The notes beneath the pieces were generated by a model, which saw only the letters and a program-made list of their open reading frames with translations, was not told the origin of the DNA and did no database searches. From an uncultured Acidimicrobiales bacterium (GTDB lineage: Bacteria > Actinomycetota > Acidimicrobiia > Acidimicrobiales > Aldehydirespiratoraceae), in contig CATQHS010000001.1 in NCBI GenBank assembly GCA_958296055.1, forward strand, positions 2,018,277 to 2,082,276: a stretch of 64,000 nt of DNA, given 5' to 3'. Positions 58,844 through 64,000 of this stretch are shown here, in pieces; the first letter of the stretch is position 1; each line of letters begins with the position of its first letter. A program made the position numbers and the translations under genes.

Positions 58844-60034
58844 TTGGCATCGCAGAACCCGTTCTCGCCCACGTTCGGCGCTTCCCCGCTGGTGCTGGCC
58901 GGGCGCGACGACATCCTCGATGACATCGACGACGCGCTGGCCGTCGGCCCGACGCACCCCGACTACACCGCACTGTTCATCGGCGTCCGCGGTGCCGGTA
59001 AGACTGCGATGTTGAACGCGGTCGAGGATCTGGCTCGCCAACGGGGATGGCTGACGATTTCAGACACGGCGGCGCCGGCCGGGCTTCTCGAGCGACTCGC
59101 CAACGCCGCCGCCCGGCTTCTGAGCGAGCACGAGCCCCCGCCTCCGGCTCGGCGCCTCAAGAAGGTGGCTGTGTCCGGGGTCGGCAGTGTCGAGTTCCAG
59201 CAAGTGCCCGAAGCCGAGCGTTCACATGAGCTCCGGTCCCTGCTTGCCGCCCTCGGCGACCGCCTCGCTGATAACGAGACTGGTTTGATGATCACCCTCG
59301 ACGAGCTACAGAGCGGAGTTCTCGACGAGATTCGGGAGTTCGGCACCGTGGTGCAACACGTCACCCGCCGCGAGGGGCGTCCAGTCGCATTCGCCGGGGC
59401 AGCATTGCCCCAGATCGAAGACACGATGCTGTCCGATGACGCCGCGACGTTCCTCCAACGATGCTCGCGGCGCGACATCGGGCGGCTTGACCTTCCAGCG
59501 ACGAGAGCCGCCATCGCCGGCCCGCTTGAAGAGCGCGGTGCCGCCATCGATCCCCGGGCCTTGGAGGAGGCGGTGGCGGCCACCTCCGGGTACGCGTTCA
59601 TGATTCAACTCGTCGGGTTCCACGCTTGGAAGGCCGCTCACGATCCCTTGTCGGGCATCACCGCCGAAGAGGTGGCCATTGGGATCGCCGAAGCCGAGCA
59701 ACGCATCAGCCGACTGGTGCTCGCCCCGACGTTGAGGGGATTGTCGAATGTGGACCGGCGGTTCCTTGTCGCCATGGCCCGTGACGACGAGGCGTCCGAA
59801 CTGGCGACCGTCGCCGCCCGGCTCGGAGTCGGCGTCAACTACGCCGGCGTCTACCGGCGTCGTTTGATCAAGGCAGGCATGATCGTCCCCGTCGGCAAAG
59901 GCCGCGTGGACTTCGCCCACCACGCCGCCCGAGCCTGGCTCCGGGACGAACCCGCATACGCGGCTGCCGTCTTCCCACGAGTTGGCGCTCACTCATACCC
60001 CAAAGTGGGAGACGAGCAGGCCGATCACACATAA
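58844..60034 (+). CDS. AAA_16-type ATP-binding protein
   Basis: A 396-residue P-loop protein starting NPFSPTFGASPLVLAGRDDIL, with Walker A GVRGAGKTA (about 47-55), Walker B GLMITLDELQSG (about 145-157) and a C-terminal winged helix (TVAARLGVGVNYAGVYRRRLIKAGMIV) followed by VDFAHHAARAWLR. It resembles the actinobacterial ATP-binding proteins often found in accessory regions; role unknown. The TTG at 58844 has only a weak AAAGG site, and the preceding 40 bp is strikingly A-rich. Its 3' end overlaps the convergent membrane protein gene by 42 bp. Confidence 0.8.
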   Translation: MASQNPFSPTFGASPLVLAGRDDILDDIDDALAVGPTHPDYTALFIGVRGAGKTAMLNAVEDLARQRGWLTISDTAAPAGLLERLANAAARLLSEHEPPPPARRLKKVAVSGVGSVEFQQVPEAERSHELRSLLAALGDRLADNETGLMITLDELQSGVLDEIREFGTVVQHVTRREGRPVAFAGAALPQIEDTMLSDDAATFLQRCSRRDIGRLDLPATRAAIAGPLEERGAAIDPRALEEAVAATSGYAFMIQLVGFHAWKAAHDPLSGITAEEVAIGIAEAEQRISRLVLAPTLRGLSNVDRRFLVAMARDDEASELATVAARLGVGVNYAGVYRRRLIKAGMIVPVGKGRVDFAHHAARAWLRDEPAYAAAVFPRVGAHSYPKVGDEQADHT

Positions 60035-60631
60035 AATCGCTCCTCCCATCATCCAGGCCACACCCGTTCCAAGATGGGTAAGACGTGCTGCATTGGTGTT
60101 GTGTCCCGTTGGTACGAGCTTGGCATAGTCGCGGGCCAGGTATCTACGCAAACCTGTTGGTTCTTTCGTGAGTAAGAGGGCATCACTTAGACCCAATCGA
60201 GCCTTTGCTCCAATGAGAGCACCCATGATGGCTGTACCCCAGGCCACCATAAGAGATCCAGCTATGAATGTGACACGAGCTAGTAGGTTATCCTGACTAA
60301 GATTATCAAAAAGATTAGTATAAAGAAACAGTAAAGATGCAATTCCAATGGACAGCAGAGTACTTGCCCTTCTGGCTACGAACTGCAATTGGGTGAACTG
60401 TATTTCTAGTTGTCTTCGGCCTTCTTCAATAGCCAAGGTCCAATCATCTTCATTCCAAGATTTGATTCCTTCCCCGATGTCAGCCGGATGGATCTTTTCA
60501 TCCTCGTAGATTTTTATACGGTAACGGCTTAGTACCGTAATCACGAAGGCTGCATGATTATTCCACTTGCGGCTTTTCTTGGTTTGCTTATTAGGCGGCA
60601 TGCCTAGAGCGGATTTGGGATTGTTTGTCAT
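59993..60631 (-). CDS. Three-helix membrane protein of the graspetide cassette
   Basis: A 212-residue protein. A basic, soluble N-terminus (residues 1-80) precedes three membrane segments at about 92-114, 118-143 and 186-211, the last at the very C-terminus. I do not recognise a family. Its ATG overlaps the ATP-grasp stop (ATGA), so it is made with the ligase and precursor, and a role in export of or immunity to the modified peptide is the natural guess. It lacks ABC or protease motifs. AT-rich codon use like the rest of the cassette. Confidence 0.75.
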   Translation of the reverse strand: MTNNPKSALGMPPNKQTKKSRKWNNHAAFVITVLSRYRIKIYEDEKIHPADIGEGIKSWNEDDWTLAIEEGRRQLEIQFTQLQFVARRASTLLSIGIASLLFLYTNLFDNLSQDNLLARVTFIAGSLMVAWGTAIMGALIGAKARLGLSDALLLTKEPTGLRRYLARDYAKLVPTGHNTNAARLTHLGTGVAWMMGGAILCVIGLLVSHFGV

Positions 60632-61551
60632 GATTCACAACTGAGAAAGTTGACGATGTGATCGGTGACGGGATCGGCAACACTTGCTGGCAGGAACATC
60701 CACTGTCCGGCCGGGTTTAAGTCGATGAACATAGGCGGACCTTCCATAGGAACGAGCCAGTCTTGACTCGAAAATCCTACATCCAACTCAGCGGCCAGTT
60801 GTACGGCTTGAGCCCCAACTTCGGGTGACTTGTGTAGAACCCAAGCATTGTGAGCTTCTTCGGCAGCTCGCCAGTCAAGAGGCCAGCAGTCGGCTTCGAG
60901 TGCTGCCGTCCTCACTGTAATGCCTGCCGTGACGACTCGCAGGTGTCTGCGAACTTCGATTCTTTTCTGAGCAATGAAAGGAGCATCCCCGAAGTCACCT
61001 GTAGTGAAGATATCATTAGTTAACAGCGTTGTGTGAACGGTCTGGGGTTGTCCTTCTGAGTTAACGAAAGCACCGGTTGCGAGCGGTTTGAGAACAACGT
61101 CGTTTCCAAGCGCGCGGCGGATTTTGAGAGGGTCTGCAGATATGATCGTCGGAGGTGTCGCTATCCCGACTCGGAGAGCGATGGCTAATTGACGAATTCG
61201 ATCCTCGGCCGCTTGAAGCGTATCAATACTCGTTAACCATTTGCGATTTCCGTGGCGAGCTATTGCCGCCACGAGCTGCACCCGGGTTCGCAGTGAAACA
61301 TCCGCAACAGACCCGACGAGATCGCCAGTCGTCCACCGACTCGGCGCTACTCTGCGCAACCAGCCCCGACTTTCCATGTCAATGGCCTTTCCATCGATCA
61401 CAAGTTTGTCTGGGGAAAGTGAGTAGCCAGCTTCAACCAGAGAGTCTGCGTCGAAGATGACCGGCTCGATTTTGCGTTCTCGGAGCCTTTCAGCAATTGT
61501 ATACAGGTGAGTGTCCGATTCGCTACCTATTAGCAACGGACACGGGGGCAT
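60628..61551 (-). CDS. ATP-grasp peptide ligase, MvdC/MvdD-like (graspetide synthetase)
   Basis: A 307-residue enzyme of the type that forms omega-ester or omega-amide side-chain links in precursor peptides. The pre-ATP-grasp segment (about 1-95) is followed by DVVLKPLATGAF (ATP-binding Lys), APFIAQKRIEVRRHLRVVTAG (core-peptide/nucleotide Arg and strand), PLDWRAAEEAHNAW and the decisive C-terminal GFSSQDWLVPMEGPPMFIDL NPAGQWMFLP: D...N metal ligands and the NPAGQW box are hallmarks of microviridin-type ligases. Its ATG shares the last A of the precursor stop (TAATG), so ligase and substrate are coupled. Distinct from RimK, whose tail differs. Confidence 0.88.
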   Translation of the reverse strand: MPPCPLLIGSESDTHLYTIAERLRERKIEPVIFDADSLVEAGYSLSPDKLVIDGKAIDMESRGWLRRVAPSRWTTGDLVGSVADVSLRTRVQLVAAIARHGNRKWLTSIDTLQAAEDRIRQLAIALRVGIATPPTIISADPLKIRRALGNDVVLKPLATGAFVNSEGQPQTVHTTLLTNDIFTTGDFGDAPFIAQKRIEVRRHLRVVTAGITVRTAALEADCWPLDWRAAEEAHNAWVLHKSPEVGAQAVQLAAELDVGFSSQDWLVPMEGPPMFIDLNPAGQWMFLPASVADPVTDHIVNFLSCES

Positions 61552-61751
61552 TATAGCAAAGTCAGAAGAGTGTCGTCCTCGTCAAAGGTCTCGGCTGCTG
61601 CCCGAGTCTCGGCTGTACCGTAATCCATTACTGATGGCAGCAGAGTGTCATCGTCAAAGGTTTCTCGCGTGAAGGTTGCTACGGTCCCCGAATCGTGCCC
61701 AGCGCGAGATACGGGTTTGCCGAGCAGCTCAAACAGGTTTATCTTTCTCAC
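61551..61751 (-). CDS. Graspetide-like precursor peptide with two core repeats
   Basis: A 66-residue peptide. The N-terminal half (MRKINLFELLGKPVSRAGHD) looks like a leader with a helical LFELL element. The C-terminal half contains two copies of a Thr/acid-rich core: RETFDDDTLLPS (29-40) and AETFDEDDTLLT (53-64), joined by a linker with further Thr and Glu (YGTAETRAAA). Lys occurs only at positions 3 and 12, so links would be esters between Thr/Ser and Asp/Glu, not amides. A perfect AGGAGG (61758-61763) sits 6 bases before the GTG. The stop overlaps the ligase start. Confidence 0.82.
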   Translation of the reverse strand: MRKINLFELLGKPVSRAGHDSGTVATFTRETFDDDTLLPSVMDYGTAETRAAAETFDEDDTLLTLL

Positions 61752-61757
61752 AATGTA

Positions 61758-61763
61758 CCTCCT
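61758..61763 (-). promoter_or_regulatory. Consensus ribosome-binding site of the precursor peptide
   Basis: AGGAGG on the minus strand, 6 bases before the GTG of the precursor gene. It fixes the start and predicts strong translation, as expected for a RiPP substrate. The 73-bp gap upstream (61752-61824) is AT-rich and may also carry a promoter, but I cannot point to clear boxes. Confidence 0.8.
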
Positions 61764-61824
61764 AACTCCTACAGGGTATCACAAAACTCTATGTTTAGCA
61801 ATACCTAATTTTTGAATAACTATG

Positions 61825-62181
61825 TTATGCAGCCTCAACATATATTCTGCCGCTTCTAAAATGTCGAGAAATTGGACCGGTTCTTATGGGGATAGTTGGC
61901 TGCCATCCTAGCCTTTCCATTTTAACTCTTATGACATGTCCAACAGTTTTACGGAATGGATCTCCTTCTGAACTATAGAGGATATCAACTAGTGGGGGTT
62001 CATCAAAGATGTGGATAATACCCTCAAGAGCAGGAAGACCATGCCTGGAGGCATCAATCAGCCTTTGTTCATTATCGGAATCGTTAATTAGCACGAATAA
62101 TCGAGTGAAAGTTGGAGCATTCCTGTCGATTACAGTACGATATAGTTGATTTTTGAAGTCGTCTGTACGGATTTCAGTCAT
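61825..62181 (-). CDS. Unknown 118-residue protein heading the graspetide cassette
   Basis: A 118-residue soluble protein: TFTRLFVLINDSDNEQRLID in the middle and GHVIRVKMERLGWQPTIPIR ... ISRHFRSGRIYVEA at the end, a basic C-terminal element that looks conserved-like but which I cannot assign. The gene lies 16 bp after the stop of the DUF1998 gene and 73 bp before the precursor, all on the minus strand, with AT-rich codons. The ATG has no ribosome site but follows a perfect TATAAT by 8 bp, suggesting leaderless translation. It could be a regulator, an accessory protein of the RiPP cassette, or belong to the neighbouring defence locus. Confidence 0.65.
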   Translation of the reverse strand: MTEIRTDDFKNQLYRTVIDRNAPTFTRLFVLINDSDNEQRLIDASRHGLPALEGIIHIFDEPPLVDILYSSEGDPFRKTVGHVIRVKMERLGWQPTIPIRTGPISRHFRSGRIYVEAA

Positions 62182-62197: not shown

Positions 62198-64000
62198 TCA
62201 CTGGAAGTAGGACCGGACTGGGTCGCCGAGGATGGGGACGACGGTGGCGCGGTCCAGGTAGCGGTTGCCGTGCTCGCAGGAGGTTTCCGGGGCGAACAGG
62301 CAGGCGTGGCAGGCGGCGGCGTGGAGGGCGTCGGACTGCTCGCCGGCGTGATGGTCGGCGCACATCGGGTCGGTCGAGCAGAGCCGCCCCCGGCGCAGGG
62401 CTTCCCGTAGCGTCGCCGACAGCCGGGCCGGGTCGGCCAGGGCCACCAAACCGCCGAGGGTGCCCTCGCTGTCGGGGGAGGCGGTGTAGAGCAGCACCCC
62501 GGCCATGGGCTCGCCCTGCGAGTCGTCGGTGGTCCGGCAGTAGAGGCGCTCCCGGATCGACGCGGTCGAGTAGCCGGAGTCAATCGCCACCTGGTGGATC
62601 AGCATGTGCGCCAGTGTGTGCACGAGCACAAACCGGCCCCTAGGTGTCGCCATCGGCTGCAGGCCGCGCCGGCGCCTCCAGGCCTGGTGGGCCGCCGCCA
62701 ACTCCCGGTAGCGCCTGCTCGCCTCGAACTCCTCCTCCCACTGCTCGACTCTGGCTTCGGGCAGCCGGATGAGAATGCCTTCGCCCAGCGTCTCGGCCGA
62801 CGGGAGCCAGTTGCTCGGCTCCGCCCAGATCGGCGCGAAGCGCTCCACGCGCTCCACGCTGCTGACATCGCCCGGCCCGTCGATGCGGGTGAAGCCGCAG
62901 AGCGCGATCACTTCGCGCAGGCGATCCACCGCCACCGGGCTGTCCAGCGTCTTGGCGAACCCGTTCGGAACTCGAAGGTGCCGCACCTTGAAATGATCCG
63001 ACTCCACGGGAACAGGGGAGGTCATGGCCGCCCACTCGGGGCCCCGAAGGTCGCTGTGGGCGTGGTCTGCGCCGTCGCTGACGCCGTGATCGTCGCGCCG
63101 GTCGGTGATCGCCGTCCAAACGTCGTCTGGGTCGAAGTGCAGCAGCCAGCGCAACTGCTGCTCGCCCCGGCCCCTTTCGAGTCGCCTGACGATCACGTCG
63201 AATTCGTAGCGGTTATCGATGTCCTCGAGATCGTCCCAGAACTCCTCCACTTTCTGATCGATCCTCTCGGTCTCGGTGGGGATGGTCAGAGCCGACCGCG
63301 ACACCGCGAACCAGGAGTTGGACGCCCCCAACAGCAAGGCCCGGGTGGGCTGGTTGCAGACGGGATCGAACCGTTGCAGATGGGGGTGGCGGCCCCGGCA
63401 CCGGGGCAGATGCTCCCAGTCTTTGAGGCCGAAGGCGTCTTGGACTATCCGATCCGACCCGCATGTCTTGCACACCACCCTCACATCGGTGGCCCGGTTG
63501 GCCATGCCCACTTCCTTTAACTCCAAAATTGCCGCGCCGCCGCCCGGGCACCGGTCGCCCCGATGCACGTACTCGACCCAGGGGAAGTCGTCGAGATGGC
63601 CGTGCGGGCAGGCCACCATGAAGCGGGCGGGCACGGCGGAGGGCTTGTAGCCGTGGCAGTTGTTGTGGAAATACCGAGCCCGGTCCGGCCGGTAGTGCGG
63701 AACGTAGAGCGTGAACCGCCTCTGATCGACGGGGGCCAAGAGGTCGCAGCGGGTGCAGCGGAGCCAGCGGGGGAAGGGATGAACCGGGATGCCGACCCGG
63801 GCCCAATAGTCCATTGCGCTGGCGGTCTCGTTCTCCCAGGGCGGGGTGCGGAACTCCGAGACCTGAGAACAGCCGGGTATGGCCCGCACCGCCCCGATCA
63901 GCCGAGGCTCGCGGATCCGCTCAGTCTGGGCCAGGTCCCAATCGCCTATCCCGGCAACCACCACCGACATGCCCGGCAGGTCCACCACCGCGCCCGGCCC
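62198..64000 (-). CDS. drmB: DUF1998 protein, DISARM DrmB-like, 5' end outside window
   Basis: At least 600 residues; the frame stays open to the window edge and the visible start is internal, since DrmB-like proteins begin a little upstream of the GPGAVVDLPGMSVVVAGIGDWD segment seen at the edge. Several Cys/His clusters follow: LRCTRCDLL, ACPHGHLDDFPW, VVCKTCGSD and PRCRGRHPHL. The C-terminal DUF1998 part contains LVHTLAHMLIHQVA, then CHACLFAPETSCEHGNRYLD, a typical ending of DrmB. In DISARM, DrmB works with the helicase DrmA, the PLD protein DrmC and a methyltransferase against phage; those genes would lie to the right. A stand-alone DUF1998 helicase partner is the alternative. Confidence 0.8.
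   Translation of the reverse strand, partial: GPGAVVDLPGMSVVVAGIGDWDLAQTERIREPRLIGAVRAIPGCSQVSEFRTPPWENETASAMDYWARVGIPVHPFPRWLRCTRCDLLAPVDQRRFTLYVPHYRPDRARYFHNNCHGYKPSAVPARFMVACPHGHLDDFPWVEYVHRGDRCPGGGAAILELKEVGMANRATDVRVVCKTCGSDRIVQDAFGLKDWEHLPRCRGRHPHLQRFDPVCNQPTRALLLGASNSWFAVSRSALTIPTETERIDQKVEEFWDDLEDIDNRYEFDVIVRRLERGRGEQQLRWLLHFDPDDVWTAITDRRDDHGVSDGADHAHSDLRGPEWAAMTSPVPVESDHFKVRHLRVPNGFAKTLDSPVAVDRLREVIALCGFTRIDGPGDVSSVERVERFAPIWAEPSNWLPSAETLGEGILIRLPEARVEQWEEEFEASRRYRELAAAHQAWRRRRGLQPMATPRGRFVLVHTLAHMLIHQVAIDSGYSTASIRERLYCRTTDDSQGEPMAGVLLYTASPDSEGTLGGLVALADPARLSATLREALRRGRLCSTDPMCADHHAGEQSDALHAAACHACLFAPETSCEHGNRYLDRATVVPILGDPVRSYFQ

Follow-up and report, generated by a model that had tools for sequence, protein, structure and literature searches.

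What does a small minus-strand operon of low G+C content in the genome of an uncultured Acidimicrobiales bacterium make, given that a 66-residue open reading frame (ORF) in it overlaps an ATP-grasp ligase gene, which in turn overlaps a membrane-protein gene? The operon lies in a 64,000-nucleotide stretch of contig CATQHS010000001.1 (GenBank assembly GCA_958296055.1), here called the window, and an earlier note based on the sequence alone had proposed that it is a new graspetide (omega-ester peptide) cassette. Sequence comparison and structure modelling indicate that the product of the cassette is very probably a graspetide whose rings are closed by esters, and we consider it likely that this product has several cores and is handled by the membrane protein.

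A conserved three-gene cassette with a repeat-bearing precursor

Eleven related loci were found, twelve with the window copy, and ten of the eleven keep the order precursor(s), ligase, membrane protein (Table 1). The ligase, used to scan genome contigs, retrieved five close relatives (L002–L006, ligases 64–70% identical), all with a repeat-bearing precursor, a ligase and a membrane protein, mostly overlapping; whole-genome searches brought in L012, the two-precursor loci L011 and L029, and L018 and L028 with three precursors each, and a plasmid collection contributed L015, on a Streptomyces plasmid. As the earlier note had read them, the precursor has a perfect AGGAGG, its stop codon TAA runs into the ligase ATG (TAATG), and an overlap of the same kind joins the ligase stop to the membrane-gene ATG (ATGA). 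A promoter and terminator scan returned signals no better than those of shuffled sequence.

Table 1 Features of the cassette, in window positions (position 1 is the first nucleotide)
Feature	Position	Strand	Basis
Shine-Dalgarno AGGAGG, six bases 5' of the precursor GTG start	61758..61763	-	read directly from sequence
Precursor peptide of 66 aa, starting with GTG; residues 1-21 form the leader, followed by two core units	61551..61751	-	17 homologous precursors adjoin related ligases
Putative leader recognition motif LFELLGKPV, residues 6-14	61710..61736	-	conserved in relatives; resembles PsnA2 leader
Core unit 1, GTVATFTRETFDDD, residues 22-35	61647..61688	-	matches T-x2-T-x3-E-T-x-D-x-D exactly; counts of the motif, shuffled precursors
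Core unit 2, GTAETRAAAETFDED, residues 45-59	61575..61619	-	T-x2-T-x4-E-T-x-D-x-D
ATP-grasp graspetide synthetase (predicted), 307 aa	60628..61551	-	NCBIfam scores, PDB profile matches, AF2 fold, tree
NPAGQW box, ligase residues 279-284	60700..60717	-	family alignment
Membrane protein, 212 aa	59993..60631	-	same position in ten related loci; co-occurrence with ligase

The precursors share a core rule. ET-x-[DE] is present in all 18 precursors of the twelve loci, and the full unit T-x2-T-x(3-5)-E-T-x-D-x-[DE] in 15 of them (22 units in total), arranged as one to three units per precursor or in up to three tandem precursor genes. The Thr directly following the Glu is invariant, and spacers of four to five residues between the second Thr and the Glu are common. 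Only one of the 789 stop-to-stop frames of the window holds a full unit, namely the precursor frame itself, and among 20,000 shuffled precursors one unit arose in 0.07% and two units in none. The two ETFDxDxTLL units reported earlier are indeed present and alike, but they are not identical (ETFDDDTLL versus ETFDEDDTLL); the reported lack of Lys in the core holds. Searches of Pfam, NCBIfam and PDB returned no family match for the precursor.

The leader follows a consensus of roughly [SN]-L-[FY]-x-x-[LM] across relatives, with the variants TL in L018a, SM in L028b and SLYRRLG in L012. The window motif LFELLGKPV resembles LFIEDLGKV of the plesiocin precursor PsnA2 as bound to its synthetase (PDB 7drm_E), a short match that is suggestive at most.

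The ligase is a predicted graspetide synthetase

The ligase has the NPAGQW box assigned to it earlier; N279, P280, G282, Q283 and W284 are invariant in the family, while A281 is Gly in L012 and L015. Profile matches of the ligase family to PDB entries were confident for graspetide synthetases only, RimK not being among them: AMdnB (E = 5.7e-35), MdnB (1.7e-31), MdnC (1.9e-22), CdnC (2e-21), PsnB (3.4e-15) and PruB (7.7e-12; a chain of 9bou in the profile search, named PruB by the fold search). An AF2 model (pLDDT 83.8), built from an alignment without the plasmid sequence, gave the same picture: the first 32 Foldseek rows were all graspetide synthetases, with RimK after them, and structural Z scores were 23.0–25.7 for graspetide synthetases (best MdnC, PsnB, AMdnB and CdnC, at 24–25.7) versus 22.2 for RimK. 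In a tree whose PDB rows are aligned fragments and whose RimK rows are long branches, the twelve family ligases form one clade (support 100/100) with a long stem, separate from TgmB, MvdC/MvdD, CdnC, PsnB-like ligases and RimK; a RimK sought in the same genome as an outgroup was not found.

By sequence, predicted structure and tree, the ligase is thus a graspetide synthetase of the MvdC/MvdD-like ATP-grasp group, and it stands beside a small conserved precursor in which Thr donors precede Asp/Glu acceptors (18 precursors, 12 loci). Ligase family, fold and tree, together with the precursor homologues, therefore support the cassette proposed in the earlier note. Neither of the contrary computational outcomes named there was seen: the ligase does not group with non-peptide ATP-grasp enzymes, and precursor homologues do adjoin related ligases, in eleven other loci.

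A co-occurring membrane protein

The third gene travels with the ligase. Among 396 genomes of the phylum, the first membrane-protein profile matched two, both with an adjoining ligase, and L018 was located by the membrane-protein profile alone, its three precursors and ligase then being found next to it. Among 399 genomes of another class, strong matches occurred in all three genomes that carry a clade ligase and in no others (chance 1e-7; two weak matches with internal stops disregarded). In the conserved layout, a cytoplasmic helix with IEEGRRQ precedes a pair of helices, and a loop of some 48 residues carrying LA..Y...G.NT.A leads to the last helix. The earlier description of a three-helix protein suits most homologues, in which three helices pass the hydropathy cut-off, but only two do so in the window sequence. 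The protein had no Pfam, NCBIfam or PDB match, and Foldseek with its low-confidence model (pLDDT 64) returned no fold match.

A similar layout (helix pair, loop of about 50–60 residues, helix) occurs directly 3' of other graspetide-type ligases, without clear sequence kinship: L030 2442–3134, the genes after the ligase in L031 and L032, Agrobacterium L040 2130–3020 and haloarchaeon L038 2909–3802. In L031 and L032 the near-identical ORF before the ligase ends TKKCDHETGEDQKGA and shares TKKxDxETGEDQKG with L030 1133–1492; these short ORFs may represent a further, tgm-like precursor type in which a membrane protein 3' of the ligase would replace the methyltransferase. Uncharacterised membrane proteins have been described in graspetide loci as cluster 18 and cluster 40 (Makarova 2022, PMC8939145).

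Proposed maturation route

We propose that the precursor is translated first and that its leader helix LFELLGKPV docks on the synthetase, which would phosphorylate, in each core unit T-x2-T-x(3-5)-E-T-x-D-x-D, the side chains of conserved Glu/Asp residues. Attack by the preceding Thr hydroxyls would then close ester rings, probably two and possibly three in each unit. Esters only are expected because Thr donors precede the Glu/Asp acceptors and the core has no Lys; since there would be two or three rings in each of two units, the whole precursor, at 7276.6 Da, should lose about four to six waters and so reach roughly 7204.5 or 7168.5 Da. The membrane protein, being translationally coupled, would then handle the product, most likely by moving it across the cytoplasmic membrane, by anchoring it there or by protecting the cell from it, and the leader might be removed or retained. 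The cassette itself has no protease or exporter and the window neighbours include no isoaspartyl-type methyltransferase, as the earlier note had observed for the locus; the whole genome (95% complete) also gave no C39 peptidase match.

If the route is right, the cassette brings to the graspetides a compact multi-core group, probably linked by esters only, that has the core rule T-x2-T-x(3-5)-ETxDxD and a leader motif. Its natural variants, with one to three units and up to three tandem precursors, would be convenient for enzyme and engineering work, and a linked membrane partner in an operon with no protease or exporter makes the exit of a graspetide from the cell, or its retention, directly testable.

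Alternative explanations

Several observations weigh against a multi-core graspetide with a membrane-protein partner. All curated graspetide ligase families scored far below cut-off for the window ligase; its NCBIfam matches were TIGR04187, TIGR04185 and TIGR04184, the highest being TIGR04187 at 88 bits against a cut-off of 350, and the microviridin (MvdC/MvdD) ligase models reached 83 and 61 against 425 and 475. The full core unit is missing from three precursors (L002, L018b and L015), L015 has a precursor and ligase without the membrane gene, and the membrane protein is poorly modelled and had no homologue of known function in the searches run. ATP-grasp ligases share a fold, and RimK is the next structural match, so the enzyme might modify some other substrate in the manner of RimK or LysX, the small ORF not being its precursor. 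We regard this as very improbable, given the overlapping reading frames, the leader motif, the precursor beside the ligase in 12/12 loci and the grouping of the ligase with graspetide synthetases and not with RimK. A closer competitor, to which we give a substantial but lesser share of belief, is that the cassette is a divergent actinobacterial branch of thuringinin (group 3), with the same core, ester pattern and membrane-protein type and only the host new. T-x2-T-x3-E-x2-D-x-D, a core attributed to thuringinin, occurs exactly (TxxTxxxExxDxD) in 11 of the 18 precursors. The earlier note had overlooked thuringinin, and because of this resemblance it is doubtful that the core follows no known pattern, although, as the note had said, it does differ from those of microviridin and plesiocin. 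Thuringinins from Bacillus also have tandem core units and one ligase, and their loci, mostly those without known transporters, carry the cluster 18 membrane protein specific to them, for which transport has been proposed (Makarova 2022, PMC8939145). Here, by contrast, the spacer varies, the hosts are actinobacterial or known from metagenome-assembled genomes (MAGs), and the Thr that invariably follows Glu across the precursors is an addition to that motif. A PsnB-based search of plasmids for the Bacillus thuringinin ligase gave no Bacillus record among the matches listed. The family may be a distant thuringinin branch or a separate graspetide group.

The surroundings of the cassette invite another explanation, which we consider unlikely: that it is a defence-island module in which the membrane protein is an effector that breaks the membrane upon infection, under the control of the cross-linked peptide kept inside the cell. 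The window copy flanks a DISARM operon on its 3' side (strong model matches to DrmB at 62198–63988 and to DrmA and DrmMI beyond the window, at L045 11349–15038 and 16656–18815), and the L002 cassette occupies the same flank, 3' of drmB, of a second drm operon and lies on the opposite strand; because their orientations are opposite, the two copies appear to have been placed independently. Further defence neighbours are Avs2 (L006), a type III restriction-modification pair (L046) and PifA (L043), and both the helix pair plus cytoplasmic helix of the membrane protein and the lack of a C39 exporter or protease in the genome would suit such a role. However, DrmA/DrmB adjoin only 2/12 cassettes, so that we rejected the cassette as a DISARM component for want of constant drm linkage, several other loci lack a clear defence neighbour, and the membrane protein has no fold match. 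Since several cassettes adjoin defence systems, we examined 15 control sites from the cassette-bearing genomes, a small set and not a strictly random one. Five of these sites had a flanking defence-model match at E < 1e-20 and two a full-length one; against these, the 5/12 cassettes with a defence neighbour were not enriched significantly (Fisher P = 0.48 and 0.11, respectively). This control removed the significance of striking neighbours and led us to set aside a defence-island function and to treat the association as a lead, not a finding. A graspetide that is never exported, with the peptide as gate or trigger and the membrane protein as effector of a two-part intracellular system often housed in defence islands, is similarly improbable; were it true, the similar three-helix proteins 3' of unrelated ligases in Agrobacterium, a haloarchaeon and other Actinomycetota would point to a general mode.

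Relation to known graspetides

The preferred reading, a multi-core graspetide cassette with a membrane partner, places the locus in a class that is already known. Assignment to a graspetide group rests on the core motif and the branch of the ligase (PMC8939145, PMC13097080). The Carter 2026 survey counts 24 groups described before and adds 19 with at least 20 members, two of the added ones with repeating precursors (PMC13097080); the present family may already be listed among them. As judged from sequence, the cassette is set apart as at least a variant within the class by its own ligase clade, the coupled membrane protein, a spacer of variable length and the Thr that invariably follows Glu.

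Microviridin synthetases (MvdC/MvdD, MdnB/MdnC, AMdnB) include the best sequence and fold matches of the window ligase, but microviridins use two ligases, a TxKxPSD core with Lys, a PFFARFL leader and a PCAT/HlyD exporter; with one ligase, no core Lys and the low model scores given above, microviridin identity was rejected. Plesiocin (PsnA2/PsnB) shares multi-core esters, a single ligase, the leader likeness and a close fold (Z 25.7), yet its core TTxxxxEE is absent from the window precursor, which excludes a group 2 identity, and PsnB is 22% identical to the ligase and lies outside the clade. The tgm clusters, or graspimiditides (TIGR04187, TIGR04188), are actinobacterial and give the ligase its top NCBIfam score, but that score misses the cut-off, tgmB forms a separate supported clade and the methyltransferase is missing here, so this identity was also rejected. 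Groups 34 and 35, compared by description only, often have long precursors with repeating motifs and, in group 34, partner proteins matching no family model (Carter 2026, PMC13097080).

Genomic setting

The low G+C content reported earlier was borne out: the cassette has 51% G+C versus 69% in the window, and its genes have third-position G+C (GC3) values of 0.45–0.55 versus 0.78–0.90 in flanking genes. Given this deviant composition and the patchy occurrence of relatives, the cassette probably arrived by horizontal transfer, as had been suggested. No relative was found among viral contigs, and viral carriage was rejected. The contig bearing L002 is labelled Terriglobia (Acidobacteriota), yet its ligase is 69% identical to that of the window; this reflects either transfer between phyla or a binning error. 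Adjoining the L005 cassette is a 2,164-residue protein (L069 5650–12144) with only an N-terminal weak LmuA match.

The extent proposed earlier, 59993–62181, stands for 59993–61751 but not for the 118-residue gene at 61825–62181 that was said to lead the set, because none of the other cassettes has that gene upstream and two paralogues of it occur elsewhere in the genome. The gene has low G+C and no family match; its paralogues lie at G000:C1:946150 and 947954, and one of them adjoins genes that, read from sequence, appear to encode a C5 DNA methyltransferase and a protein with a PIN domain. It may be a small defence-island or mobile gene.

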